A stretch of 64,000 nucleotides of DNA, taken from Promicromonospora sp. MEB111. Lineage in GTDB: Bacteria > Actinomycetota > Actinomycetes > Actinomycetales > Cellulomonadaceae. The DNA is taken from contig NZ_JARVSD010000011.1 of assembly GCF_030209445.1 (NCBI RefSeq), positions 1 through 64,000 on the forward strand. Direction: 5' to 3'. The first letter of the stretch is position 1; each line of letters opens with the position of its first letter. Both the position numbers and the translations under genes were made by a program. The notes beneath the pieces are model-generated. The model saw nothing but the letters and a program-made list of their open reading frames with translations. It had not been told where the DNA came from and searched no databases. Of this stretch, positions 35,654-48,536 are shown piece after piece.

Positions 35654-35684
35654 CCCCGCCCGACCTCGCTCCGCCCGCCCGGAA

Positions 35685-35755
35685 GTGCGCTTCTACCCAG
35701 TCATCTGGCCCGAAAACGACCGTAATCCGGGCCGGATGACTGGGTAGAAGCGCAC
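35685..35755. terminator. Long 28-bp stem hairpin
   Basis: Arms 35685-35712 and 35728-35755 (starting GTGCGCTTCTACCCAGTCAT) pair over 28 bp with a single G-T mismatch and a 15-base loop. It follows the CGNR gene and precedes the LacI operon. It resembles the 6960-7023 hairpin in size and position but not in sequence. Confidence 0.7.
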
Positions 35756-35824
35756 CTCTGACCTGGGTCGTCGGGGGCCGCTTGACGGCCCGCCCGCGCC
35801 GGTGCAACACTGGCGCCCATCACC

Positions 35825-35836
35825 GGAAACGTTTCC
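35825..35836. promoter_or_regulatory. LacI-family operator 1
   Basis: The perfect palindrome GGAAACGTTTCC with central CG, the classic LacI/GalR operator type, about 15 bp downstream of a possible promoter (TTGACG 35782-35787, AACACT 35806-35811). Confidence 0.85.
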
Positions 35837-35858
35837 AGTGTGCATCCGGCTGGAAACT

Positions 35859-35870
35859 GGAAACGTTTCC
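35859..35870. promoter_or_regulatory. LacI-family operator 2
   Basis: A second identical GGAAACGTTTCC, 34 bp centre-to-centre from operator 1 and 52 bp before the lacI start; a half-site TGGAAAC lies at 35851-35857. The pair suggests cooperative autorepression of the whole operon. Confidence 0.85.
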
Positions 35871-35922
35871 AAATCTGCTGGGTCAGGCACAGGGCAGGAC
35901 CTCACGACGAAGTGGAGTGACA

Positions 35923-36954
35923 GTGTCGTCATCACGCGCCACCCTCATCCAGGTGGCCGAGCGCGCCGGGGTGTCGCTGGCGTCGACCTCGCGGGCGCTG
36001 CACGGCACGGGCGCCAGCCAGAAGATGGTGGACCGCGTCCGCGCCGCCGCCGCCGAGCTCGGCTACAGCCCGGACGCGATCGGCCGGTCGCTGCGGATGA
36101 AGCGGACCTTCCAGGTCGCGTTCGCCGTCGCCGACATCGGCAACCCCGTCTACGTCGAGATGCTCACCGCGATCCACGAGGTCCTCGCCCCGCACGGGTA
36201 CCGCGTGGTCGTCATGTCCACGGGGCACACGGTCGCCTCCACGGTCGACCTGGTCCGCAGCCTCGGCAGCGGGTTCGTCGACGGCCTGATCGTCAGCCCG
36301 CTGCGCACCGACGACGCGCTCGTCGACGCGATCCGGGAGGCGCCCGTCCCCGTCGTCGTCATCGGCCGCTCGCTCGAGCAGCAGGGCATCGACTCCGTCT
36401 CCACGGACTCGGCCGCGGGCCTCGGCCAGGCCGTCGCCCACCTCCTGGAGATCGGCCGCCGCCGGATCGGGTTCGTCAACGGACCGCTCGACACCACCCC
36501 GGGCGCCGCCCGCCAGCGCGGGTTCGACGCCGCCACGAGCGGCCCGGCGTTCACCGGGGACCACGCCGAGACCGAGCGGGCCGACGACTTCACGGTCGCC
36601 GCCGGGCTCGCCGCCGCGCGCCGGCTGCTGTCCCGCACCCCCGCGGCGGGGCCGTTCGACGCCGTCGTCGCGGCCAACGACCTGCTCGCCATCGGCGTCG
36701 TCCGCGCCGCCCGGGAGCTGGGGCTCTCGGTGCCCGGCGCGCTCGCCGTCACCGGGATGGACGACACGGAGATCGGCCGCGTCTTCCAGCCGAGCCTGAC
36801 CAGCGTCTCGCTCGGGTCCGCGGAGCGTGGCGCCGCCGCCGCCCGGCTGGTCCTGGACCGGGTGGACGACGGCGCCGAGCCCGCCCAGCAGATCGCCATC
36901 GGGCCGCGCCTGTTCGTGCGCGAGTCCACAGCCCAGGAAGAGAGTGCCCGATGA
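35923..36954 (+). CDS. LacI family transcriptional repressor of the ADP-ribosylglycohydrolase operon
   Basis: A 343-residue regulator. The N-terminal LacI helix-turn-helix is TLIQVAERAGVSLASTSRAL, followed by the hinge region ELGYSPDAIGRSLRM and a sugar-binding-type effector domain ending near VTGMDDTEIGRVFQPSLTSV. A GTGGAG site precedes GTG 35923. Two identical operators lie just upstream. It is the first gene of an eleven-gene plus-strand operon, so its inducer is probably the transported sugar or a product of it. Confidence 0.9.
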   Translation: MSSSRATLIQVAERAGVSLASTSRALHGTGASQKMVDRVRAAAAELGYSPDAIGRSLRMKRTFQVAFAVADIGNPVYVEMLTAIHEVLAPHGYRVVVMSTGHTVASTVDLVRSLGSGFVDGLIVSPLRTDDALVDAIREAPVPVVVIGRSLEQQGIDSVSTDSAAGLGQAVAHLLEIGRRRIGFVNGPLDTTPGAARQRGFDAATSGPAFTGDHAETERADDFTVAAGLAAARRLLSRTPAAGPFDAVVAANDLLAIGVVRAARELGLSVPGALAVTGMDDTEIGRVFQPSLTSVSLGSAERGAAAARLVLDRVDDGAEPAQQIAIGPRLFVRESTAQEESAR

Positions 36955-37916
36955 CCGTCCTCGCCTCGCCCCGGCCGCCGTCGACGCCCCGGTCCGGGCG
37001 CCGCCGCGGCCCCACGGGCATGGACCGCGCCCGACGCCGCGAGGCCGCCGCACTGGTGATGCCGTCGCTGCTGCCGATCCTCGTGCTGTCCGTCGCGCCG
37101 CTGCTCATGGGCGTGCTGCTCGCGTTCACCGACGCGGAGCTCGTGCGGCGCCCCGACTACCAGTTCGTCGGCGTCGACAACTTCGTGCGGCTGGCCGGCA
37201 ACTCGTTCTTCTGGGACTCGTTCCGCATCGGCATGGTGTGGGCCGTCTCGGTGACGCTGCTCCAGCTCGTCGCCGCCCTGGGCCTGGCCCTGCTGCTCAA
37301 CTCCGGTCTGCGGCTGCAGGGGCTCACCCGGGTGCTCGCCCTGATCCCGTGGGCGATGCCGCCCGTGGTCGTGGCGATCATGTGGAAGATGATCTACTCG
37401 CCGAACGCGGGGCCGCTCAACGCGTTCCTCGGCTCGGTGGGTCTGCCGGACGACATCAACTGGCTCGCCGACTTCTCGACCGCGCTGCCCGCCGTCATCG
37501 TCGTCGGCGTCTGGGTGGGCATGCCCCAGACCACGGTGACGCTGCTCGCCGGGCTGCAGCAGATCCCGCAGGAACTGCACGAGGCCGCCGCGATGGACGG
37601 CGCCGGGGCCTGGCGCCGGTTCTGGGCGGTCACGCTGCCGAGCCTGCGGCCGATCGTCACGTCGATCACGTCGCTCAACTTCATCTGGAACTTCAACTCG
37701 TTCTCGCTGGTCTACGTGCTGACCGAGGGCGGGCCCGGCGGCCGCACCATGCTGCCGATGCTGTTCACCTACCTGGAGGCGTTCAAGAACCGGAACATCG
37801 GTTACGCCGCCGCGATGGGCGTGGTGCTCGTCGTGGTGGTCGTGCTCCTCCTCGCGCTCTACCTGCGGTCGCAGTTCCGTGACGACCGCGCCGAGAAGAC
37901 GAAGAAGGAGGGCTGA
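36951..37916 (+). CDS. ABC sugar permease, CUT1 family, MalF-like
   Basis: A 321-residue permease with about six membrane helices and a basic N-terminus (RSGRRRGPTGMDRARRREAA). The EAA loop reads LHEAAAMDGAGAWRRFWAVT. ATG overlaps the lacI stop by 4 bases. With the following permease and binding protein it forms an importer lacking its own ATPase gene. The solute is unknown; the neighbours suggest a ribose-containing compound. Confidence 0.92.
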   Translation: MTVLASPRPPSTPRSGRRRGPTGMDRARRREAAALVMPSLLPILVLSVAPLLMGVLLAFTDAELVRRPDYQFVGVDNFVRLAGNSFFWDSFRIGMVWAVSVTLLQLVAALGLALLLNSGLRLQGLTRVLALIPWAMPPVVVAIMWKMIYSPNAGPLNAFLGSVGLPDDINWLADFSTALPAVIVVGVWVGMPQTTVTLLAGLQQIPQELHEAAAMDGAGAWRRFWAVTLPSLRPIVTSITSLNFIWNFNSFSLVYVLTEGGPGGRTMLPMLFTYLEAFKNRNIGYAAAMGVVLVVVVVLLLALYLRSQFRDDRAEKTKKEG

Positions 37917-37920
37917 GTCG

Positions 37921-38760
37921 ATGCGCGTCATTGCCCAGCAGATGGTCCGCCCCGCCCAGTACGTGGCGCTGGCCGGTTACATCATCTTCCTGGGGTTCCC
38001 GCTGCTGTGGCTGCTGTCGGCCTCGGTGAAGTCGTCCGGCGAGCTCAACTCCCTGGTCGTGAACCTGCTTCCGCAGGAGTGGCACTGGGAGAACTACTCG
38101 GAGGCCCTGGCCCGGCAGGGCCTCGTGCGGTCCTCGGCCAACAGCGCGATCGTCGCGCTCGCGTCCACCGCGCTCGTCATCCTCGTCGCGCTGCCCGCGT
38201 CGTACGTGCTCGCGCGGCTCAAGGGGGCGATCCGCGCGGCCGGCGTCGGCTGGATCCTGGTGAGCCAGGTGTTCCCCGTGATCCTCGTGATCCTGCCGCT
38301 GTTCCTCATCCTGCGGACCATCGGCCTGACGGACAGCCTGGTGGGGCTCACGCTCGTGCACACCACGTACACGCTGCCGTTCGCGCTGTGGATGCTGCAG
38401 GGGTACGTCGCCGCGATCCCGGTGGAGCTGGAGGAGGCCGGGTCGATGGACGGCGGCAGCCGTCTGGTGGTGCTGCGCCGGATCGTCTTCCCGCTGCTCG
38501 CCCCCGGCGTCGTCGCCACCGCGATGTTCAGCTTCGTCTCGTCCTGGAACGAGTTCTTCTTCGCTCTCGTGCTGCTCCAGTCGCCCGAGAACTACACCCT
38601 GCCGATCACCCTGTCGACGTTCATCGGCGGCGAGGGCAAGGTCGCGCTCGGCCCCCTGGCGGCGGGCTCCGTGCTCGCCGCGATACCCAGCATCGTCTTC
38701 TTCTCGATCATGCAGAAGAAGCTCACCGGCGGCCTCATGGCCGGGGCGGTCAAGGGATGA
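37921..38760 (+). CDS. ABC sugar permease, CUT1 family, MalG-like
   Basis: A 279-residue permease with about six helices. The EAA loop is LEEAGSMDGGSRLVVLRRIV, and the C-terminus QKKLTGGLMAGAVKG is typical of MalG-type subunits. It starts 4 bp after the upstream permease stop, with a AAGGAGG site at the end of that gene. Confidence 0.92.
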   Translation: MRVIAQQMVRPAQYVALAGYIIFLGFPLLWLLSASVKSSGELNSLVVNLLPQEWHWENYSEALARQGLVRSSANSAIVALASTALVILVALPASYVLARLKGAIRAAGVGWILVSQVFPVILVILPLFLILRTIGLTDSLVGLTLVHTTYTLPFALWMLQGYVAAIPVELEEAGSMDGGSRLVVLRRIVFPLLAPGVVATAMFSFVSSWNEFFFALVLLQSPENYTLPITLSTFIGGEGKVALGPLAAGSVLAAIPSIVFFSIMQKKLTGGLMAGAVKG

Positions 38761-38807
38761 CCAGCCCCCACGGCCACACCAGCACCACCTATCCGAAAGG
38801 CAGACCC

Positions 38808-40082
38808 ATGAAGTCTCGTGGAGTGTTCATCGCTGCATGCCTCACGACCACCACCCTCCTGCTCGCCGCCTGCGGCAGCGGGGACGCCGGCGACGACGGC
38901 CCGGTCACGCTGAAGTTCCAGGCGCTGTCCGACCAGCCGGCCGCGATCGCCGCGACCGAGTCGATCGTCGAGGACTGGAACACGGCCAACCCCGACGTCC
39001 AGGTCGAGATCGTCCCGGCGGGCTGGGACGGCGTCTACGACAAGCTCATCACCCAGTTCAACGGCGGCGCCGCGCCCGACATCATCCACTACGAGGCGGC
39101 GAGCATCGTCTCGTTCGCCCGCGACGGCTACCTGGCCGACCTCACCGACCTCATGTCGGACGAGCGCCGTGCGGACATCCCCGAGGGCGTGCTCGACTCC
39201 GTGACCGTCGACGACCAGGTGATCGCCTACCCGACCGAGCTGCAGTCGTACGTGGTGTTCGCCAACCGCACGCTGCTGGAGGACGCCGGGGTGGAGATCC
39301 CGACCGGTGAGACGATGACGTGGGACGAGCTGCGCGAGATCGCGAAGGCGACCACGAAGGGCGACGTCTACGGCCTCGGCTGGGGCCTGTCGAGCCCCAC
39401 GGCGGCGTTCATGGCGCTGGCCCCCGGGTTCGGCGGCACCTACATCACCGGCACGGGCGAGGACGCCGACCTGACCGTCGGCGAGGGCGAGATGGCGCTG
39501 CCCGAGCTGGTGCACGGCATGGCCTACGACGACAAGTCGATCCTGCCGGTCACCCTGACGCAGTCGGGTTCGGAGGCCATCGCCTCGTTCTACGCCGGGC
39601 AGACGGCGATGACCGTGCAGGGTTCCTACCAGGCCGCGAACATCGCCAAGGACGCGCCGGAGGACCTCGACTGGGTGGCGCTGCCCCCGCTGGCCGGCCC
39701 CGAGGGCCCGCAGCAGGCGGCCAACCCGCAGACGCTGTCGGTCAACATCGACTCCGAGCACGTCGAGGAGTCCGCGGAGTTCATCGAGTTCTTCACGCAG
39801 ACGGAGCACCTCGCCGCGCTGAACGAGGCGGACGCCCTGATCCCGGCGACGACGTCGGCCCAGGAGGCCCTGACGGAGAAGCTCGGCGACGAGAACGGCT
39901 GGAGCACGATCCTGGCCTCCGGCCAGAACTTCACGGCCGCCCCGTACCTCTTCGCGGACTCGTACGCGCAGTGGAAGGACACCGTGGCGACGCCCGCCTA
40001 CCAGCGCTACCTGGCGCAGGAGACGGACGAGACGGAGCTCGCCGACCAGCTCACGAGCGGCTGGGACGAGATCACGCAGTAA
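38808..40082 (+). CDS. ABC transporter solute-binding lipoprotein
   Basis: A 424-residue secreted binding protein. Signal peptide with lipobox LLLAACGSG (Cys about residue 22) anchors it to the membrane. The mature sequence shows the family 1 solute-binding fold (FNGGAAPDIIHYEAASIVSF and MTVQGSYQAANIAKDAPEDL). It lies last in the transporter group, 47 bp after the permease. It defines the substrate of the system, which cannot be read from sequence. Confidence 0.9.
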   Translation: MKSRGVFIAACLTTTTLLLAACGSGDAGDDGPVTLKFQALSDQPAAIAATESIVEDWNTANPDVQVEIVPAGWDGVYDKLITQFNGGAAPDIIHYEAASIVSFARDGYLADLTDLMSDERRADIPEGVLDSVTVDDQVIAYPTELQSYVVFANRTLLEDAGVEIPTGETMTWDELREIAKATTKGDVYGLGWGLSSPTAAFMALAPGFGGTYITGTGEDADLTVGEGEMALPELVHGMAYDDKSILPVTLTQSGSEAIASFYAGQTAMTVQGSYQAANIAKDAPEDLDWVALPPLAGPEGPQQAANPQTLSVNIDSEHVEESAEFIEFFTQTEHLAALNEADALIPATTSAQEALTEKLGDENGWSTILASGQNFTAAPYLFADSYAQWKDTVATPAYQRYLAQETDETELADQLTSGWDEITQ

Positions 40083-40121
40083 CTGACGCAAGCGACGTAG
40101 GAACGAACAAGGAGCGTAGCC

Positions 40122-41291
40122 GTGAGCTGGTTAGAGGACCGGTCGGTGGCCGTGATCACCGGTGCCGCAGTGGGGGACGCCCTCGGTGGAGCGACCGAGG
40201 GCTGGACACCGGAACAGATCGAGGAGCGGCACGGGGGCCGCGTGCGCGGCATCGTCGGGCCCTGGTACCCCAACTGGCGCGACGCGCGCCCCATCGCCCC
40301 GTACCACAAGGGCGACGGGCACATCACGGACGACACCCTCATGACCAGGGCGCTCGTGGAGGTGTACGCCAAGCGGCGTGCGCACCTCGACGCCTACGCG
40401 ATGGCCGAGGACCTGGTGCCGCTGATGATCGGGGAGCCGCGGTGGATCCCCGAGCTCGAGTCGACGGCGCTGCTGCTCCAGCGGGTGTTCCTCGCCGAGA
40501 AGTGGCTCGTGGCCCGGCTGCACTACGGGCACGTGGACCCGCGCGAGGCGGGCGTGGGCAACGTCGTCAACTGCGGGGCGGCCATGTACGCCGCGCCCGT
40601 GGGGCTGGTGAACGCGGGCGACCCCCGCGCCGCCTACGCCGAGGCGATCGACCTCACAGGCGCCCACCAGTCCAGCTACGGACGCGAGGCGGCCGGGGTC
40701 TTCGCGGCGATGGTCGCGGCCTCGGTCGCCCCGGGCGCCACGCTGGACGACGTCGTGGCCGCCGCGCTGGACGTGGCGCACGACGGGACGGCGGCCGCGC
40801 TCCGGGCCGTCGTGGACGCCCTGTCCGGCTGGCCGGAGCCGCCCACGACCGACGACGAGGAGCGCAAGCTCGCGCGCCTCGTGCGGGAGGTCGTGGCCCC
40901 GTACGACTCGGTCGGCCCGGAGTACCGGCAGATGTCGATGGACGCCCGCCGGCCCTCGCGCACCAAGTCGATCGAGGAGCTGCCGGTGGCGCTCGGGCTC
41001 CTGCTCGGGCACCGCGGCGACTACCGCGGCTCCGTGCTGGCCGCCGTGAACTACGGCCGGGACGCCGACTCGATCGCCGTCATGGCGGGCGCCGTGGCCG
41101 CCGGGCTGGGCGGGAGCGGCGTGGTGCCCGCCGAGTGGCTCGACCAGATCGAGACCGCCAGCCAGATGGACGTCCGCGAGACGGGCCGCCTCATGGCGTC
41201 CGCGGCGGGCGACATCCTGCGGGCGGACCGCGAGCGGGCGCTGGCCCGGCTGACGTCGCTCGACGCCGTCGGGGCGGGTGAGCCCGCGTGA
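40122..41291 (+). CDS. ADP-ribosylglycohydrolase-family protein (first copy)
   Basis: A 389-residue all-helical ARH/DraG-type hydrolase that would cleave an N- or O-glycosidic bond to a ribose. Metal-site motifs are present: GAAVGDALGGATEGW at the N-terminus, HITDDTLMT with the Asp pair, and NYGRDADSIAVMAGAVAAGL at the C-terminus, where GRDADS replaces the usual GGDTDT. GTG start after AAGGAG. Downstream ARH and ribokinase genes overlap in series, suggesting small-molecule catabolism rather than protein de-ADP-ribosylation. Confidence 0.82.
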   Translation: MSWLEDRSVAVITGAAVGDALGGATEGWTPEQIEERHGGRVRGIVGPWYPNWRDARPIAPYHKGDGHITDDTLMTRALVEVYAKRRAHLDAYAMAEDLVPLMIGEPRWIPELESTALLLQRVFLAEKWLVARLHYGHVDPREAGVGNVVNCGAAMYAAPVGLVNAGDPRAAYAEAIDLTGAHQSSYGREAAGVFAAMVAASVAPGATLDDVVAAALDVAHDGTAAALRAVVDALSGWPEPPTTDDEERKLARLVREVVAPYDSVGPEYRQMSMDARRPSRTKSIEELPVALGLLLGHRGDYRGSVLAAVNYGRDADSIAVMAGAVAAGLGGSGVVPAEWLDQIETASQMDVRETGRLMASAAGDILRADRERALARLTSLDAVGAGEPA

Positions 41292-42664
41292 GGCTGACCT
41301 GGGCCCAGCCCGAGGACCTGCTGGCGCACGAGCTCGTGCAGTCGGCGGCCGAGGGCAAGGACGTCGCCGACGTCCGCGGCCGCTGGGTCGCGGCGGGCGG
41401 CGACCCGACGCCGGCCGTGAGCGGCGCCGGCCCGGTGCCGGCGCCGCCGGCGCTGCGCGCGCTGGCGCGCGACCTGCTGGACGAGCTGGACGCCCTGCCT
41501 GCGCCGTCCTTGGCCCCGGCCACGTGGGACGACGTCGAGGCCCTGCTCCCGCCCGCCCCGTCGCTGCCGAGCCGCCCGGCCGGAGGGGACGCCGCCTACG
41601 CCGCCCGGGTCCAGGGCGCCTGGACCGGCCGGGCCGCGGGCTGCCTGCTCGGCAAGCCCGTGGAGAAGATCCCGCGGGCGGGCATCGAGGAGATCCTGCG
41701 GTCCACCGGCCGCTGGCCGCTCGACCGCTGGTTCACGGCCGTCGGCCTGCCCGACGACGTCGCGGCGCGCTGGCCGTGGAACCGCCGGTCGGCGCCGACG
41801 TCGCTGGAGGAGAACATCCACGGCATGCCGGAGGACGACGACCTCAACTACCCGATCCTGGCCCTGGCGCTCCTGGAGCGGCACGGCCGCGGGTTCACCA
41901 CGGACGACGTGGCGCAGCTCTGGCTGGACAACCTGCCCGCCGGGCGCACCTTCACCGCCGAGCGCGCTGCCTACCGCAACATCCTCGACGCGGTGCCCGT
42001 GCCGGAGACGGCCACGCACCACAACCCGTTCCGCGAGTGGATCGGCGCGCTCATCCGCACCGACCTGCTCGGCTGGGTCTCGCCCGGTGACGTGCGCGGG
42101 GCGGCCCGGCTGGCCTGGGCCGACGCCCGGCTCAGCCACACCCGCGACGGGGTCTACGGGGCGATGTGGGCGGCCGGGCTGGCCGCCGCCGCGATGGTCG
42201 CCGAGAGCGTCGAGGACGTGCTCGACGCCGCGGACGCCGTCGTACCGCCGGGCAGCGGGCTGGCCGCCGCCGTGGCGCTCGGCCGGTCGCTCGGGCGCGA
42301 CAACGACGGGAGCGAGGCGGGCGTGCGCGCCGGGCTCGACCGCATCCACGCCGAGTACGGGCACCTGCACTGGGTGCACACGCTGAACAACGCTGCCGTC
42401 ATCGCGTTCGCGCTGTCCGCGGGCCGGGGCGACTTCGGGGCGAGCGTCTCGATCGCCGTCCCGGCGGGCTGGGACACGGACTCGGCGGCGGCGACCGTGG
42501 GCGGCGTGGCCGGGGCTCTTCTGGGCGTCGACGGGATCGGCGAGCGGTGGACCGCACCCCTGGACGGGCGTATCGCGACCTCCCTGCCGGGCGGGGAGCA
42601 GCGCATCGCCGACCTCGCGGCGCGTACCGTGGCGCTGGTGGAGCCCGCCGGAGGTGCCGCATGA
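41288..42664 (+). CDS. ADP-ribosylglycohydrolase-family protein (second, divergent copy)
   Basis: A 458-residue ARH-family protein with about 100 extra N-terminal residues, Pro/Ala-rich after residue 40. Motifs: GAWTGRAAGCLLGKPVE, PEDDDLNYPI (about 181-190) and GWDTDSAAATVGGVAGALLG. It differs clearly from the first copy, so the two probably act on different bonds or steps. Start GTG overlaps the first ARH stop by 4 bases, and the ribokinase gene overlaps its stop. Confidence 0.82.
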   Translation: MRLTWAQPEDLLAHELVQSAAEGKDVADVRGRWVAAGGDPTPAVSGAGPVPAPPALRALARDLLDELDALPAPSLAPATWDDVEALLPPAPSLPSRPAGGDAAYAARVQGAWTGRAAGCLLGKPVEKIPRAGIEEILRSTGRWPLDRWFTAVGLPDDVAARWPWNRRSAPTSLEENIHGMPEDDDLNYPILALALLERHGRGFTTDDVAQLWLDNLPAGRTFTAERAAYRNILDAVPVPETATHHNPFREWIGALIRTDLLGWVSPGDVRGAARLAWADARLSHTRDGVYGAMWAAGLAAAAMVAESVEDVLDAADAVVPPGSGLAAAVALGRSLGRDNDGSEAGVRAGLDRIHAEYGHLHWVHTLNNAAVIAFALSAGRGDFGASVSIAVPAGWDTDSAAATVGGVAGALLGVDGIGERWTAPLDGRIATSLPGGEQRIADLAARTVALVEPAGGAA

Positions 42665-43593
42665 CCGGGCAGGTCGTGGTGGTCGGGTCGGCGAACGTCG
42701 ACCTGGTGGTCGACGTGCCCCGGCACCCCGCCGGCGGCGAGACCATCCTGGGCGGCGACCTGCGCCGCACACCGGGCGGCAAGGGCGCCAACCAGGCCGT
42801 CGCCGCGGCGCGGGCCGGGGGAGCCGACACCACGTTCGTGGGGGCGCTGGGCCGGGACGAGTCCGGGGAGCTGCTGCTCGCCTCGCTCGCCGGTGCGGGC
42901 GTGCGGACCGACACGGTCGAACGCGTCGACGCCCCCACCGGCACGGCGCTGATCACCGTGTCGCCCGACGGCGAGAACGCCATCGTCGTGGCGCCCGGCG
43001 CCAACTCGCGGGTGCGGGTCGGCGCGGCGCAGGCCCGCCGGATCGCGGCCGCCGACGTCGTCCTGGCGCAGCTCGAGATCCCGCTCGACACCGTGATCGC
43101 GGCCGCCCGGGAACGCCGCGCGGGCGCGTTGTTCGTGCTCAACGCGGCGCCGTCGCGCGACCTGCCCGACGCCCTGTGGGACCAGCTCGACGTGCTCGTG
43201 GTCAACGAGCACGAGGCGGCGGACCTGGCGGGGGCGGGCTCCGGCGCCGCCACCCCCGAGGAGCTCGCGGCCGCGCTGCTGGCCCGTGTGCCGGCGGTCG
43301 TCGTGACCCTCGGCGCGGCCGGAAGCCTGGTGGCCGAGCGCGGTGCGGACGCCGTCCGCGTCCCGGCCGCGAAGGTCGCGGCGGTGGACACGACGGGCGC
43401 CGGTGACACGTACTGCGGCGTGCTCGCGGCGTCCCTGGCCGGCTCAGGTCGGGCCGGCTCCGGCCTCCTGCGGGCGGCACACCTGGCCGGGTCCGCCGGG
43501 GCGCTCGCCGTCACGCGGCCGGGGGCGCAGGACGCCGTGCCCGACGTGGCCGACGTCGTCGCGCTGGCAGAGACTCTCGGAAAGGCATCATGA
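42661..43593 (+). CDS. Ribokinase-type PfkB sugar kinase
   Basis: A 310-residue PfkB kinase. The N-terminal signature VVVVGSANVDLVVDVPRHP, the GGKGANQAVAAARAGG motif and the C-terminal anion-hole motif VDTTGAGDTYCGVLAA with the catalytic Asp support ribokinase (ribose to ribose 5-phosphate). It directly follows two ADP-ribosylglycohydrolase-family genes with a 4-base overlap, so ribose released by them is the likely substrate. Another sugar or nucleoside is possible. Confidence 0.88.
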   Translation: MTGQVVVVGSANVDLVVDVPRHPAGGETILGGDLRRTPGGKGANQAVAAARAGGADTTFVGALGRDESGELLLASLAGAGVRTDTVERVDAPTGTALITVSPDGENAIVVAPGANSRVRVGAAQARRIAAADVVLAQLEIPLDTVIAAARERRAGALFVLNAAPSRDLPDALWDQLDVLVVNEHEAADLAGAGSGAATPEELAAALLARVPAVVVTLGAAGSLVAERGADAVRVPAAKVAAVDTTGAGDTYCGVLAASLAGSGRAGSGLLRAAHLAGSAGALAVTRPGAQDAVPDVADVVALAETLGKAS

Positions 43594-45650
43594 GCTACAC
43601 GTTCAACCCCCTGGTCCCGCGGCCGATCGACCGGCCCACCGAGGTCGCGACCGGGGCCTTGACCCCGGAGGCGAGCGAGGCGCTCGACCAGGCCAAGATC
43701 TTCTCCGGGCCCGCCGACCCGGCCGACCGCCCGGCGTGGCGCGAGACGCTGCGGGCCTGGCGGTCCGACGCCCGCGACCGGCACGGCTACACCGGCGCCG
43801 CGTACGCGCGCCCGGAGGCCGCGTGGGCGGCGCGGTGCAGCACGGTGGCGCAGGTCTGGCTGTGGGACGAGCTGCTCTACTCGTTCGAGGAGGAGCGTTT
43901 CACGCCGGAGCGGTTCCTCGCCGACGCCCGGGAGCGGTTCGGAGGGCTGGACGCCGTCGTGCTGTGGCACGCCTACCCGGTGATCGGGCTGGACGACCGC
44001 AACCAGTGGGACTTCTACCGCGACGTGCCCGGCCTGGCCTCGCTCGTGGCGACGTTCCACGACGCCGGCCTGCACGTCTTCGTCGACTACAACCCGTGGG
44101 ACGTCGGCACGCGGCGCGGGGCGGACGACCTCACGGAGCTCGCCGCGGTCGTGCGCGAGCTCGGGGCGGACGGCGTCTTCCTGGACACCCTGAAGAAGGC
44201 CGAGCCCGAACTGGTCGCGCGCCTGGAGGGGGCGCGGCCCGGGATCGTGCTGGAGGGCGAGTCCAAGCTGCCCGTCGAGCGCATCGAGGACCACTCCTCC
44301 TCGTGGGCGCAGTTCTTCGCCGACTCCCCGGTGCCCGGCGTGCTCCGGGCGCACTGGTACGAGCGCCGGCACATGCAGCATCACGTACGGCGCTGGCACC
44401 GTGACCACTCCGAGGAGCTCCAGTCCGCGTGGCTGAACGGCGTGGGCGTGATGGTGTGGGAGGTCGTCTTCGGCGTCTGGGTCGGGTGGTCCCGGCGGGA
44501 CGCCGCGACCGTGCGCCGCCTCGTCACGGTCCAGCGGGCCGCCGGCGACCTGCTGCTCGACGGCGAGTGGACGCCGCTGGCGCCGCTCTCCGACGAGGCC
44601 GAGGCCGCGGGCGTGTACGCGTCGCGGTGGTCGCTGGACGGCGTCACGCTGTGGACGCTGGTGAACCGGGGCGAGGCCGACTACGCGGGGCCGGTACTGG
44701 CCGCGGGCGCCGCGGAGCGGGCGGCCGGCCGGCTGGTGCCGCTCACGGAGCCGTCGGCCGCCGCGGACGTCGTCGTCCCCGGCCGCGGTATCGCGGCCCT
44801 GCTGCACTTTTCTCCGGGCGCCGCCGAGCCGGCCTGGCTGCCGGACCTGCTCGATGCGCTGCGCGGGATGCCGCACGACGCCGACTCCCGGTTCCCGCAC
44901 CGGCTGGCGCGTCGCGTCGGCGTGTCGGACGCACAGGTCACCCCGGTGACCTACACGTCTGTCAGGGCGGCTCCGCCGAAGAGCACCCCGGAGCCGGACG
45001 CCGTCGTCGTCCCCGCGGGCGACTACGTGCTCACCGTGCGCTACCGCGCGCGGGAGACCGGGATGTACCAGGGCGCGCCGTACGTGGACGAGTGGAAGCC
45101 GCTGCCGCCGCGTCTGCACGACGCGCGCACGCTGCAGCGCGACGGCGTCCTCGCGGCGCCGGTCGCGGTCGCGGAGGCCGAGGTGACGAACGCGCAGTTC
45201 GCGGCGTTCCTCGACGCGACGGGCTATGCGCCCGCCGAGCCGCACCGGTTCCTCGCGCACTGGTCCGACGGGAGCCCGGCCGCGGGTACCGAGGACGAGC
45301 CGGTGACGTACGTCGACCTCGACGACGCCCGCGCCTACTGCGCCTGGCGCGGCGGGCGGCTGCCCACGGAGGACGAGTGGCAGCTCGCGGGCGAGGCCCG
45401 GCCGTCGTCCTTCGGGGTGGAGCGGCCCGGCGTCGCCGTCTGGAGCTGGACCGAGAGCGAGCACAGCGACGGCCGCACCCGGTTCGTCATGCTCAAGGGC
45501 GGCAGCGACCACCGCGCCGCGGACTCCGACTGGTACGTCGAGGGCGGGCGGCACGCGCCGGACTACTCGGTGAAGCTGCTGCTCCCGGGCCTCGGGCTCG
45601 CCCGGAGCGCCACGGTGGGGTTCCGGTGCGCGTGGGAGGTGTCGGCATGA
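43590..45650 (+). CDS. TIM-barrel glycosidase-like protein fused to formylglycine-enzyme-like domain
   Basis: A 686-residue two-part protein. Residues about 60-300 look like a glycosidase-type barrel (VVLWHAYPVIGLDDRNQWDF, LHVFVDYNPWDVGT, VLEGESKLPVERIEDHSSSW), followed by a beta region (about 330-420). Residues about 450-685 match the FGE-sulfatase/SUMF1 fold (VTNAQFAAFLDATGY, DARAYCAWRGGRLPTEDEWQ, final VGFRCAWE). Only one Cys is seen in the fold's middle, so true formylglycine activity is doubtful. No signal peptide. It overlaps both neighbours by 4 bases. The function is unknown. Confidence 0.75.
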   Translation: MSYTFNPLVPRPIDRPTEVATGALTPEASEALDQAKIFSGPADPADRPAWRETLRAWRSDARDRHGYTGAAYARPEAAWAARCSTVAQVWLWDELLYSFEEERFTPERFLADARERFGGLDAVVLWHAYPVIGLDDRNQWDFYRDVPGLASLVATFHDAGLHVFVDYNPWDVGTRRGADDLTELAAVVRELGADGVFLDTLKKAEPELVARLEGARPGIVLEGESKLPVERIEDHSSSWAQFFADSPVPGVLRAHWYERRHMQHHVRRWHRDHSEELQSAWLNGVGVMVWEVVFGVWVGWSRRDAATVRRLVTVQRAAGDLLLDGEWTPLAPLSDEAEAAGVYASRWSLDGVTLWTLVNRGEADYAGPVLAAGAAERAAGRLVPLTEPSAAADVVVPGRGIAALLHFSPGAAEPAWLPDLLDALRGMPHDADSRFPHRLARRVGVSDAQVTPVTYTSVRAAPPKSTPEPDAVVVPAGDYVLTVRYRARETGMYQGAPYVDEWKPLPPRLHDARTLQRDGVLAAPVAVAEAEVTNAQFAAFLDATGYAPAEPHRFLAHWSDGSPAAGTEDEPVTYVDLDDARAYCAWRGGRLPTEDEWQLAGEARPSSFGVERPGVAVWSWTESEHSDGRTRFVMLKGGSDHRAADSDWYVEGGRHAPDYSVKLLLPGLGLARSATVGFRCAWEVSA

Positions 45651-46855
45651 GCGTGTCGCGCGATCCCGCGGTCGGCGCCCTGGCGGGCCTGCGCGTCGTG
45701 GACGCGTCCACGCTGTTCGCGGGGCCGATGGCGGCGATGCACCTGGGTGACCTGGGTGCCTCCGTGATCAAGGTGGAGCACCCGGTCAAGGCCGACCCGT
45801 CGCGCACGCACGGGGCCGCGAAGGACGGCGTCAACCTCTGGTGGAAGACGCTGGGGCGCAACAAGCGCACCGTCACGGCGAACCTTGGTTCGGACGGCGG
45901 GCGCGAGGTGTTCCTCGCGCTGGCCGAGCGGGCCGACGTGGTGATCGAGAACTTCCGGCCCGGCACGCTCGAACGCTGGGGCCTGGGCTACGAGGAGCTG
46001 TCGGCGCGCAACCCGCGCCTCGTGCTCGCGCGGGTCTCGGGCTTCGGGCAGACCGGCCCGTACCGCACACGCCCGGGGTTCGGCACGCTCGCGGAGGCGA
46101 TGAGCGGGTTCGCGGCGATGACCGGCGAGGCCGACGGCCCGCCCACGCTGCCGCCCTTCGGCCTGGCCGACGGCGTCGCGTCGCTCGCCACCGCGTTCGC
46201 GATCATGACGGCACTCTCGGCGCGCGACCGGACCGGCCGGGGGCAGGTCGTGGACACCGCGATCGTCGAGCCGATCCTCGCGATGCTCGGGCCGCAGATC
46301 ACGCGCTGGGACCAGCTCGGGACCGTGCAGGCGCGGACCGGCAACCGGTCGAGCAACAACGCGCCGCGCAACACCTACCGCACCAGCGACGGGCACTGGG
46401 TGGCCGTCTCCACGTCGGCGCAGTCGATCGCGGAGCGGGTGATGCGGCTGGTCGGGCGGCCGGAGCTGGTGGACGAGCCCTGGTTCGCGCGCGGCGTGGA
46501 CCGGGCGCGGCACGCGGACGAGCTCGACGCCGCCGTCGGCGGCTGGATCGCGGAGCGCACCCGGGACGAGGTGGTGAAGGCGTTCGAGGAGGCCCAGGCC
46601 GCCGTCGCCCCCGTGTACGACGCGCGGGACATCGTGGCCGACCCCCAGTTCCAGGCCCTCGGGACCATCCACGAGATCGAGGACCCCGAGCTGGGGCCGA
46701 TGCTCATGCAGGGACCGCTCTTCCGGCTCTCGGAGAACGACGGCGTCATCCAGTTCACGGGCCGGCCGCACGGCGCGGACACGGACGAGGTGCTGGGGGA
46801 GCTGGGCTTTTCCGCCGAGCGCGTGGCGGAGCTGCGGGAGGAGGGGGCGGTATGA
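45647..46855 (+). CDS. CaiB/BaiF CoA-transferase (family III)
   Basis: A 402-residue enzyme that moves CoA between carboxylic acids. N-terminal LRVVDASTLFAGPMAAMHLG and DLGASVIKVEHP are characteristic; GRNKRTVTANLGSDGGREV and SGFGQTGPYRTRPGFG follow, and the Asp in PFGLADGVASL fits the catalytic aspartate. It overlaps both neighbours by 4 bases. With the CitE-like lyase next to it, it would activate and then split an acid derived from the non-sugar part of the substrate. Confidence 0.9.
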   Translation: MSVSRDPAVGALAGLRVVDASTLFAGPMAAMHLGDLGASVIKVEHPVKADPSRTHGAAKDGVNLWWKTLGRNKRTVTANLGSDGGREVFLALAERADVVIENFRPGTLERWGLGYEELSARNPRLVLARVSGFGQTGPYRTRPGFGTLAEAMSGFAAMTGEADGPPTLPPFGLADGVASLATAFAIMTALSARDRTGRGQVVDTAIVEPILAMLGPQITRWDQLGTVQARTGNRSSNNAPRNTYRTSDGHWVAVSTSAQSIAERVMRLVGRPELVDEPWFARGVDRARHADELDAAVGGWIAERTRDEVVKAFEEAQAAVAPVYDARDIVADPQFQALGTIHEIEDPELGPMLMQGPLFRLSENDGVIQFTGRPHGADTDEVLGELGFSAERVAELREEGAV

Positions 46856-47673
46856 CGCCGCTGACCCTGCTCTACGTGCCCGGCGACCGGCCCGACCGGG
46901 TGGCCAAGGCACTGGCCTCGGACGCCGACGTGGTGCTGGTCGACCTGGAGGACGCCGTCGCGCCGTCGCACAAGGCGGAGGCGCGGGACAACGCGGCCCG
47001 GCTGCTGGCGGGCCTGCCGGACGGGCTGGTCCAGGTGCGGATCAACCACGGCAGCAGCCGGTGGCACGCCGACGACGTTGCGATGCTCGCGGCCCTGCCG
47101 CTCGCCGTCGGCGCCCGTGTGCCCAAGGTGGAGTCCGCCGCGGAGGTGCGGGACCTCGCGGCCGCGCTGCCCGGCCGGGCGCTGCACCTGCTGGTCGAGT
47201 CGGCGCTCGGCGTCGAGCGGGCCTTCGAGCTGGCGACGGCGTCGCCGCAGGTGCGGTCGATCGGGCTGGGGGAGGCGGACCTGCGCTCCGACCTGCGAGT
47301 CGACGGCGAGGAGGGACTGCTCTGGGCGCGCAGCCGGGTGGTGGTCGCGGCCCGGGCGGCGGGGCTGGTGCCGCCAGTGATGTCGGCGTTCACGAACGTG
47401 CGGGACCTGGACGGGCTGGCGGCGTCGTGCCGGGCCGGGCGGGCGCTGGGCTTCTGCGGCCGGACGGCGATCCACCCGGGGCAGCTCCACACGATCCGGG
47501 CGGCGTTTCTGCCCTCGGCCGAGGAGGTCGCCGCGGCGCGCGAGGTGCTGGCGCGGGTCGGCGCCGCCGCCACCGAGGGTGTGGGTGCCGTGGCCCTGAC
47601 GGACGGGACGTTCCTCGACGTGGCGATGGTGGAACGGGCGCGGTGGGTGGTGGAGCTGGGGGAGAAGCGATAG
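46852..47673 (+). CDS. HpcH/HpaI-CitE family CoA-ester lyase
   Basis: A 273-residue TIM-barrel lyase of the citrate-lyase beta/malyl-CoA lyase type. VDLEDAVAPSHKAEAR, LLVESALGVERAFELA and IGLGEADLRSDLRV hold the conserved Asp, Glu and Asp of the metal and CoA site; GFCGRTAIHPGQL is typical of the family. It would cleave a beta-hydroxyacyl-CoA to acetyl- or propionyl-CoA plus an oxoacid. It is the last gene of the eleven-gene operon. Confidence 0.88.
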   Translation: MTPLTLLYVPGDRPDRVAKALASDADVVLVDLEDAVAPSHKAEARDNAARLLAGLPDGLVQVRINHGSSRWHADDVAMLAALPLAVGARVPKVESAAEVRDLAAALPGRALHLLVESALGVERAFELATASPQVRSIGLGEADLRSDLRVDGEEGLLWARSRVVVAARAAGLVPPVMSAFTNVRDLDGLAASCRAGRALGFCGRTAIHPGQLHTIRAAFLPSAEEVAAAREVLARVGAAATEGVGAVALTDGTFLDVAMVERARWVVELGEKR

Positions 47674-47701: not shown

Positions 47702-48208
47702 ATGAATCCGCTCGCCACGAGGCTCCTGCGCCTCGTCATCGTGCTTCTCTTCCTGGGCGTCGCGCTGGTGCAGCTCGTGGTGCTCCCGGAGCTCTCGGCC
47801 GGCGTCGCGTCGTCCTATCCCGAGGCCGCTAGCCTTCGGGTGCCCACTCTCGCCTGGTCGATCGCCGTGCTGGTGCCGGCTCAGGTGGTCCTCGTCGGTA
47901 TCTGGCGGCTGCTCGCCCTGGTCCGTCGCGATGCGGTGTTCTCGCCCGACGCGTTCCGGTGGGTCGACCTGATCGTCTGGGCATCCGTCGGCGCCTGCGT
48001 GCTCGCGCTCGGCCTCCTGAGCTGGCTGACGGTGCGGACCCTGGACTTCGGGATGCAGCCGGGCATCGGGCTCGCGCTCATCGGGTGCGCCGTGCTCGCG
48101 GGCGGGATCGCCCTGCTGGTCGTCGTCCTGCGCGGCCTGCTGGTCAAGGCCGTCGGGTGGAAGGGCGAGGCGGCGGCGCTCCGGATCGAGCTCGACGAGG
48201 TGATCTGA
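47702..48208 (+). CDS. DUF2975 membrane protein
   Basis: A 168-residue membrane protein with four helices (LRLVIVLLFLGVALVQLVVL, TLAWSIAVLVPAQVVLVGIW, WVDLIVWASVGACVLALGLL, IGLALIGCAVLAGGIALLVV) and a short loop RRDAVFSPDAFRWVD, typical of DUF2975. Function unknown; the family nearly always sits with a small Xre-type regulator, as here (1-base overlap). AGGAGG lies just upstream of ATG inside or next to the CGATAG repeats. Confidence 0.82.
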   Translation: MNPLATRLLRLVIVLLFLGVALVQLVVLPELSAGVASSYPEAASLRVPTLAWSIAVLVPAQVVLVGIWRLLALVRRDAVFSPDAFRWVDLIVWASVGACVLALGLLSWLTVRTLDFGMQPGIGLALIGCAVLAGGIALLVVVLRGLLVKAVGWKGEAAALRIELDEVI

Positions 48209-48438
48209 TGCCGATCGTCGTGGACATCGACGTCATGCTCGCGCGCCGCAAGATGTCCGTGGGGGAGCTTGCCGAGCGGGTCGGGATCACCCCGGCGAAC
48301 CTCGCGGTCCTGAAGAACGGCCGCGCCAAGGCGGTCCGGTTCACGACGCTCGACGCGCTCTGCGCGGCCCTCGAGTGCCAGCCGGGCGACCTGATCAGGT
48401 ATGTCCCGGGTGGCGACACGGTGTTGCCGGAGGGCTGA
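48208..48438 (+). CDS. Small Xre/YozG-like helix-turn-helix regulator
   Basis: A 76-residue DNA-binding protein consisting of one helix-turn-helix: MLARRKMSVGELAERVGITP, NLAVLKNGRAKAVRFTTLDA and LCAALECQPGDLIRYVP, the pattern of the YozG type. It is translationally coupled to the DUF2975 gene and probably represses the pair through the CGATAG repeats. Its 3' end contains the first unit of the repeat array. Confidence 0.85.
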   Translation: MPIVVDIDVMLARRKMSVGELAERVGITPANLAVLKNGRAKAVRFTTLDALCAALECQPGDLIRYVPGGDTVLPEG

Positions 48439-48536
48439 CGGGGGCTTGGCGGAGGGCTATCGGGGGCTTGCTGGAGGGCTGTCGGAGCGCTGGAGGGGCG
48501 TCACGGAGGGCTGACGGGAGCCTGACAGAGGGCCGG
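48428..48536. repeat. Imperfect ~22-bp tandem repeat array
   Basis: Degenerate units with core GGAGGGCTGACGGG: 48428-48449, 48450-48472, a longer variant 48473-48503, 48504-48525 and a partial copy to 48536. The first unit includes the HTH gene's stop codon. No spacers of constant length, so not CRISPR. It fills the gap between the HTH gene and the HNH element. Confidence 0.7.

Follow-up and report, generated by a model that had tools for sequence, protein, structure and literature searches.

A LacI-controlled ten-gene block of soil actinobacteria as a candidate pathway for a ribosyl-type glycoconjugate

Comparison of sequences indicates that a ten-gene operon present in Promicromonospora sp. 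MEB111 is inherited as a block among many soil actinobacteria. We propose, with a probability of roughly 45%, that this operon is under LacI control and serves to break down one imported glycoconjugate in which a ribosyl-type sugar is joined to a beta-hydroxy acid. In the substrate a small beta-hydroxy (di)carboxylic acid would carry a pentofuranosyl group, probably ribosyl; it is the identity of the sugar and of the acid, the type of bond and the order of the steps that we infer. According to our hypothesis the glycoside would enter through a CUT1 importer, energised by an ATPase encoded elsewhere, and its glycosidic bonds would be cleaved inside the cell by two metal-dependent proteins of the ADP-ribosylglycohydrolase family (ARH1 and ARH2) together with a TIM-barrel protein acting as third glycosidase. 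The freed pentofuranose, most likely D-ribose, would be phosphorylated by a ribokinase. The other product, a beta-hydroxy acid of the malate or citramalate kind, would receive CoA from an acyl-CoA through a CaiB-type transferase, and a CitE-type lyase would then cleave the CoA ester to a 2-oxo acid and acetyl-CoA or one of its homologues.

Layout and operators of the block

The window, by which we mean the whole stretch of 64,000 nucleotides that was analysed, is part of contig 31 of a 6.23-Mb genome. ORF reading together with Pfam and NCBIfam identified ten open genes on its plus strand (35923-47673), in the order LacI, two CUT1 permeases, binding protein, ARH1, ARH2, kinase, TIM/FGE, CaiB and CitE, as follows.

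35824..35837, no strand: LacI-type operator 1, CGGAAACGTTTCCA, a palindrome; sites of this kind are a conserved feature ahead of LacI
35858..35871, no strand: LacI-type operator 2, TGGAAACGTTTCCA, a palindrome
35923..36954, plus: LacI-family repressor, 343 aa (Pfam)
36951..37916, plus: CUT1 permease (UgpA/MalF type), 321 aa (Pfam, NCBIfam)
37921..38760, plus: CUT1 permease (GlcU/MalG type), 279 aa (Pfam, NCBIfam)
38808..40082, plus: extracellular solute-binding protein (SBP_bac_1), 424 aa (Pfam)
40122..41291, plus: ARH1, ADP-ribosylglycohydrolase-family protein, 389 aa (Pfam)
41288..42664, plus: ARH2, divergent ADP-ribosylglycohydrolase-family protein, 458 aa (Pfam, structure model)
42661..43593, plus: ribokinase-like PfkB kinase, 310 aa (Pfam, NCBIfam)
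43590..45650, plus: TIM-barrel glycoside-hydrolase-like protein with C-terminal FGE-like domain (TIM/FGE), 686 aa (Pfam for FGE, model)
45647..46855, plus: class III (CaiB) CoA-transferase, 402 aa (Pfam, NCBIfam)
46852..47673, plus: CitE/HpcH-family CoA-ester lyase, 273 aa (Pfam, NCBIfam)

A preliminary description of this DNA had claimed eleven genes with 4-base overlaps at seven of ten junctions; we count ten genes, with such overlaps at six of the nine junctions and gaps of +4, +47 and +39 at the remaining three. The single plus-strand unit that it placed at 35825-47673 was confirmed, the start lying at most one base from the first LacI palindrome and the end coinciding with the CitE stop, and all the protein classes that it named were recovered by Pfam and NCBIfam, the TIM barrel itself by model only. 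The second permease was assigned the start ATG 37921, which has an AGGAGG site, and an alternative GTG at 37879 would create a 38-base overlap with its neighbour. The solute-binding protein carries a lipoprotein signal, as judged by eye. A promoter search at the block found none, and terminator-like sites at the block were in no excess over chance. The next genes downstream, which lie outside the unit, encode a DUF2975 protein and a small Cro/C1-type HTH protein.

Control by the LacI-type repressor is supported by the conservation of its sites. Within the 150 bases that precede the LacI match, at least one site with no more than two mismatches was present in 64 of 71 stretches, and two sites in 54, compared with none in 1420 control stretches; the seven stretches without an operator belong to five Glycomyces loci, Kribbella L083 and Leifsonia L085. 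This sequence-specific count supersedes a looser palindrome count (67/70 upstream versus 21/70 control stretches). With at most one mismatch allowed, the operator 14-mer occurs in its own 6.2-Mb genome only as these two operators, and the regulon is thus probably this operon alone. The ten-gene block contains no ATPase gene for the importer; a candidate UgpC/MsmK-like ATPase gene lies at C29:60802-61710, 57% identical to the Ensifer one.

Co-inheritance and natural variants

Scanning a collection of genomes for the TIM/FGE protein yielded 176 relatives, the best 80 of which were taken as loci. Gene presence in these was scored by tblastn, gene calling having mislabelled frames in high-GC loci. 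The closest named relatives of the block are Promicromonospora species. Among the best 80, 62 have all ten genes, and the order is the same in 80/80 for whichever genes are present. Contig ends truncate five loci (L008, L022, L060, L066 and L074), which count towards the 80 but not as complete; L041, which is truncated as well and has no kinase, and the broken L039 are treated likewise. The kinase is the block gene most often absent, and the sole absent one in nine loci. L061 is without CaiB and CitE and keeps the rest, and L034 is without LacI, ARH1, kinase, CaiB and CitE, so that not every part is required everywhere. The TIM/FGE gene of L062, with eight stops in the matched frame, was omitted from alignment A1; alignments A1, A2 and A3 comprise 46, 42 and 40 sequences, of at most 81 (the 80 loci and the window). 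A protein of cluster c12 stands downstream of the block in 17 loci and was excluded from the unit; the copy at L063 is an esterase by Pfam.

Two further lines of evidence concern inheritance. First, in a set of 200 genomes from the family to which the window belongs, TIM/FGE was found in 43, ARH1 in 44, CitE in 44 and CaiB in 43, with an identical set of 43 genomes shared by all four, a co-occurrence that applies to close orthologues owing to the thresholds, which we chose ourselves (1e-80, 1e-60, 1e-45 and 1e-120). The one extra genome, 75% complete, has ARH1 and CitE. Secondly, ARH1, ARH2, kinase, CaiB and CitE show correlated pairwise distances (r 0.90-0.95), and in each of the ten gene pairs 0/200 shuffles gave a value as high. 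Shared occurrence and correlated distances fit a block that travels and diverges as a single unit. The preliminary description had staked its reading on the set being kept together in other genomes, and this is what we find, with close orthologues nearly all-or-none. Across the phylum sample the full TIM/FGE protein appears patchy and rare: a search matched 65 of 396 genomes, and among the matches listed the own genome alone has it at full length, the others being short and nearly all within the FGE part.

Natural variants separate the two halves of the block. In Nonomuraea (L134) ARH1 (64%), ARH2 (56%) and a ribokinase stand together with LacI, the permeases and the binding protein, and tblastn did not detect TIM/FGE, CaiB or CitE in this 21-kb stretch. 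The CaiB (63%) and CitE (48%) of Nonomuraea are encoded at another place, where a GntR regulator and a DctM transporter flank them. Two additional ARH genes precede ARH1 at L134. In Mycolicibacterium a ribokinase, permeases and a binding protein accompany ARH2 (41%); Sphingopyxis has the kinase (49%), TIM/FGE (33%), a GH127 enzyme and a CoA-transferase, with no ARHs alongside. Burkholderia, Rhodococcus sp. DN22 and Nonomuraea possess a CaiB-CitE pair that no ARH accompanies.

Plasmids provide a further series of variants. ARH1 relatives were present in 23 plasmid records, 21 of them from Hyphomicrobiales (one of these, from Microvirga, being just 23% identical). LacI, permeases, binding protein, ARH1 and UgpC are present in all nine Rhizobiales loci that we read, and a long ARH in eight. 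CaiB and CitE occur in three (L122, L141 and L143), and L140 has CaiB with no CitE detected; L131 has a ribokinase downstream and L142 a divergent ribokinase-like gene (36%) upstream, and L129, L130 and L132 have neither kinase nor CaiB/CitE. In none of the nine do kinase and acid half stand together. L132 contains a 61-residue kinase-like fragment. CaiB lies 4.4 kb downstream of ARH1 in nine listed records, including L122 and L143.

Eleven of the 80 loci are kinase-less; ten of them (all except L034) were traced into their genomes, and a ribokinase-like gene was found elsewhere in 10/10, the best being 43-51% identical. From the half-only loci and the kinases encoded elsewhere it follows that the sugar and acid halves are separable and that the kinase seems replaceable. 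The division into sugar release and phosphorylation on the one side and CoA activation and cleavage on the other, as drawn in the preliminary description, is supported by these half-only variants and by the intact putative catalytic residues described below.

Sugar, acid and competing substrates

Pfam PF03747 matches both ARH1 and ARH2, the genes of which share a 4-base overlap in 51 of 72 loci. Residues E26, T69, D70, D71, D314, D316 and S317 of ARH1 are kept in 70/70 sequences, and E126, E182-D185, D396, D398 and S399 of ARH2 in 74/75, the sole exception being the broken locus L062; by comparison with ARH1/ARH3/DraG, we take these residues to be metal ligands. The model of ARH2 (mean pLDDT 92) adopts the all-helical ARH/DraG fold, and 48 of its 50 listed PDB matches are of ARH/DraG type (ARH3, DraG, MJ1187), the remaining two, at ranks 1 and 4, being chains of FtsHi motor complexes. 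ARH1 has the loop NCGAAMY where the paralogue at C31:136841 has GNGAAMR, presumably the ADP-ribose-binding form, and the residue after the loop Met is Tyr in 69/70 sequences, Phe in one and never Arg.

In the TIM/FGE protein Pfam recognises the FGE part only (PF03781, positions 33-122 of 255) and gives no curated GH family match for the TIM-barrel part. Foldseek neighbours of the model (pLDDT 82) are amylase, GH30 xylanase and alpha-galactosidase-type barrels as well as FGE, with 2q17 and 6muj matching the FGE part; the best PDB matches are mostly TIM-barrel hydrolases, at whole-chain TM-scores of about 0.3. The TIM-barrel part is probably the third glycosidase of the block. Three residues, D199, E222 and E224, are invariant in 46 sequences, and our guess is that they are its catalytic carboxylates. 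Residues 636-676, which by comparison with SUMF1 we take to be the copper-cysteine-pair region of FGE, contain no cysteine pair (39 of 46 sequences have no cysteine there and seven have one), which makes FGE chemistry unlikely.

The preliminary description had named ribose as the sugar. This is plausible insofar as the Nonomuraea kinase, which adjoins orthologous ARHs, passes the cut-off of the ribokinase model TIGR02152 (309.7 against 299.65), but the window kinase, at 258.9 bits, remains under it; the Agrobacterium and Sphingopyxis counterparts score 279.4 and 259.8. The kinase residues N12, D14, G39-K41, E139 and D249, presumably ribose-site and catalytic residues as in E. coli ribokinase, are kept in 61 sequences. 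In a rather unlikely variant of the same two-part pathway the substrate would be a non-ribose furanoside, of arabinofuranose, apiose or galactofuranose type, and the kinase would take that sugar. The Sphingopyxis kinase and TIM/FGE stand beside a GH127 beta-L-arabinofuranosidase-type enzyme that replaces the ARHs, and the sugar could therefore be another furanose; such a reading would also accommodate the low score of the window kinase, and the ARH family may not be limited to ribose. It is opposed by the distance of the ribokinase model from the next-best kinase model (258.9 vs 82.5 bits, NCBIfam), by the retained ribose-site residues and by the Nonomuraea score.

Both enzymes of the acid half keep their putative catalytic residues. 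CaiB matches PF02515 (E 4e-121) and its D175, the presumed catalytic aspartate, is invariant in 77 sequences; it scores alike with formyl-CoA, mesaconate and glutarate transferases (NCBIfam). E116 and D143 of CitE, which we take to be metal ligands, are invariant in 74 sequences. The best named model for CitE is RipC, a lyase of itaconate degradation, at 154.8 bits and far under the cut-off of 375; its best solved relatives are labelled acyl-CoA lyase beta chain, presumably RipC. The Ensifer CitE has citrate lyase, not RipC, as its best model, and the Ensifer CaiB a dicarboxylate (succinate-glutarate) transferase, under cut-off. The RipC model of the window CitE, the Ensifer CaiB model and the DctM carrier of Nonomuraea suggest an acid similar to citramalate or malate; against it stand the citrate-lyase fit of the Ensifer CitE and the equal scores of the window CaiB with three transferases. 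Outside ARH contexts, CaiB relatives stand beside MFS carriers and varied enzymes, so the acid may be no dicarboxylate. Nor are we aware of a ribosyl malate or citramalate that is abundant in nature.

That CaiB and CitE are portable, and occur free of ARHs in the three taxa named above, raises the possibility that the acid half handles acid from another source (esters that decorate an oligosaccharide, or the general salvage of dicarboxylates) and shares no more than its regulation with the sugar half; L061 and Nonomuraea, where the ARH half has no adjacent acid half, agree with this. We nevertheless consider it improbable, given the separate pairing of ARH1 (39%) with CaiB (46%) in Rhizobiales, the co-inheritance in 43/43 TIM/FGE-bearing family genomes and the finding of no esterase by Pfam among the ten proteins.

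If anything slightly less probable is a nucleoside-like N-riboside, the base or ring of which other enzymes would convert to the acid taken by CaiB and CitE. Trios of ARH, permease and kinase in which the transporter is of nucleobase or nucleoside type are reported from Staphylococcus (PMC3637587) and from E. coli, as yegTUV (PMC10819704), and the CaiB relatives of Halomarina and Rhodococcus stand beside amidohydrolase, isochorismatase or cyclase genes. However, the compact block, complete in 62/80 loci, contains no ring-opening or base-degrading gene, its importer is of CUT1 type and a third glycosidase-like protein is present. Reversal of ADP-ribosylation, or recycling of ADP-ribose or NAD, would fit the name of the ARH family and the intact putative metal ligands but is very improbable in a LacI/CUT1 context, with Tyr or Phe instead of Arg in the ARH1 loop (NCGAAMY) of 70 sequences and with neither a nudix nor an NAD-related protein recognised by Pfam in the ten-gene set.

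Several specific substrates were considered and rejected. Arsenosugars were set aside since the block has no arsenic gene and their 5-deoxy sugar could not be acted upon by ribokinase; nicotinate riboside, since no ring-opening gene is present in the block. Thuringiensin, methanopterin-type hydroxyglutarate ribosides and t6A-type nucleosides were dropped for want of support.

Comparison with known systems

To our knowledge ARH proteins have been studied almost wholly as erasers of protein ADP-ribosylation. We put forward as a tentative and somewhat doubtful possibility that the block represents an undescribed pathway for an environmentally common ribosylated hydroxy-dicarboxylate, with ARH1 and ARH2 as coupled carbohydrate glycosidases and TIM-barrel/FGE as a new glycosidase family. 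If this were true, a class of natural products would have been revealed from its degraders, and the retention of the block under 28 genus names points to a fairly common conjugate. The claim of the preliminary description that no described pathway has this gene set agrees with our search of the open-access literature (most subscription papers lying outside its scope), in which neither the ten-gene combination nor the pathway or substrate was found. ARH and kinase modules are already known and unexplained, and it is the ten-gene combination that is new to this literature. ARH genes beside sugar kinases are still unexplained in both E. coli and Staphylococcus (PMC10819704, PMC3637587). Since the block offers a transporter whose binding protein lends itself to screening, and since natural variants contain one half only, direct tests of what an ARH does beside a kinase become feasible.

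The block resembles yegT-yegU-yegV of E. coli, a single operon of transporter, ARH and PfkB-type kinase, in combining a transporter, an ARH and a sugar kinase. It differs in that yegT-yegU-yegV has one ARH, a nucleoside-symporter-type carrier and a GntR-family regulator, and no TIM/FGE, CaiB or CitE; its functions are called unknown in PMC10819704. In the staphylococcal SERP2216-2218 type an ARH likewise adjoins a ribokinase and a permease, whereas the permease is of the cytosine/purine family and the acid half is absent (PMC3637587).

The rhizobial LacI-CUT1-ARH1-ARHlong-UgpC plasmid operons, for which no description was found in the open-access literature, share the gene order of the block and an ARH1 that is 39% identical over nearly its full length, and several contain CaiB or CaiB and CitE. 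In contrast to the block, an ARH of about 700 aa with an extra C-terminal region replaces ARH2, TIM/FGE is absent and the ATPase is included. Assimilation of citramalate and itaconate employs a CoA-transferase and the RipC/Ccl lyase, and is thus similar to the proposed acid half in that CoA is transferred to a dicarboxylate before CitE-type cleavage. The block differs from it in having no hydratase, and in that its acid genes are located inside a glycoside operon.

Repeats flanking the operon

Two repeat features lie near the operon, one on each side:
35682-35758, hairpin with 31-nt arms, upstream of the operon
48424-48485, short tandem repeat of period 22; the small Cro/C1-type HTH gene (48208-48438) ends within it

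The 19-nt core of the hairpin, GCGCTTCTACCCAGTCATC, occurs in 13 copies in a genome-wide count, versus none for the reversed control, and in the same genome the copies form facing pairs three times. The hairpin is perhaps a dispersed REP-like element.

ARH genes at other loci

The Promicromonospora sp. MEB111 genome has another ARH locus, L116 (G000:C6:68000-87000), with two ARH matches; these genes adjoin a divergent LacI, a binding protein and a permease, and kinase, CaiB and CitE were not seen among the called genes, all non-ARH names at this locus being assigned by eye. ARH genes were also found elsewhere:
L134:7976-12534, four consecutive ARH genes in the Nonomuraea cousin operon
L122:7974-10073 and L123:5983-8118, ARHs of ~700 aa from Proteobacteria, whose ~400 C-terminal residues had no Pfam match

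CaiB relatives in other contexts

CaiB relatives with 51-64% identity to the window protein are encoded in L124, L126, L127 and L128, with CitE-type lyases nearby. The neighbours in Rhodococcus and Halomarina include FAD, cyclase, amidohydrolase or MmgE/PrpD genes; those in Burkholderia were named by eye only. These four loci probably represent another acid pathway.
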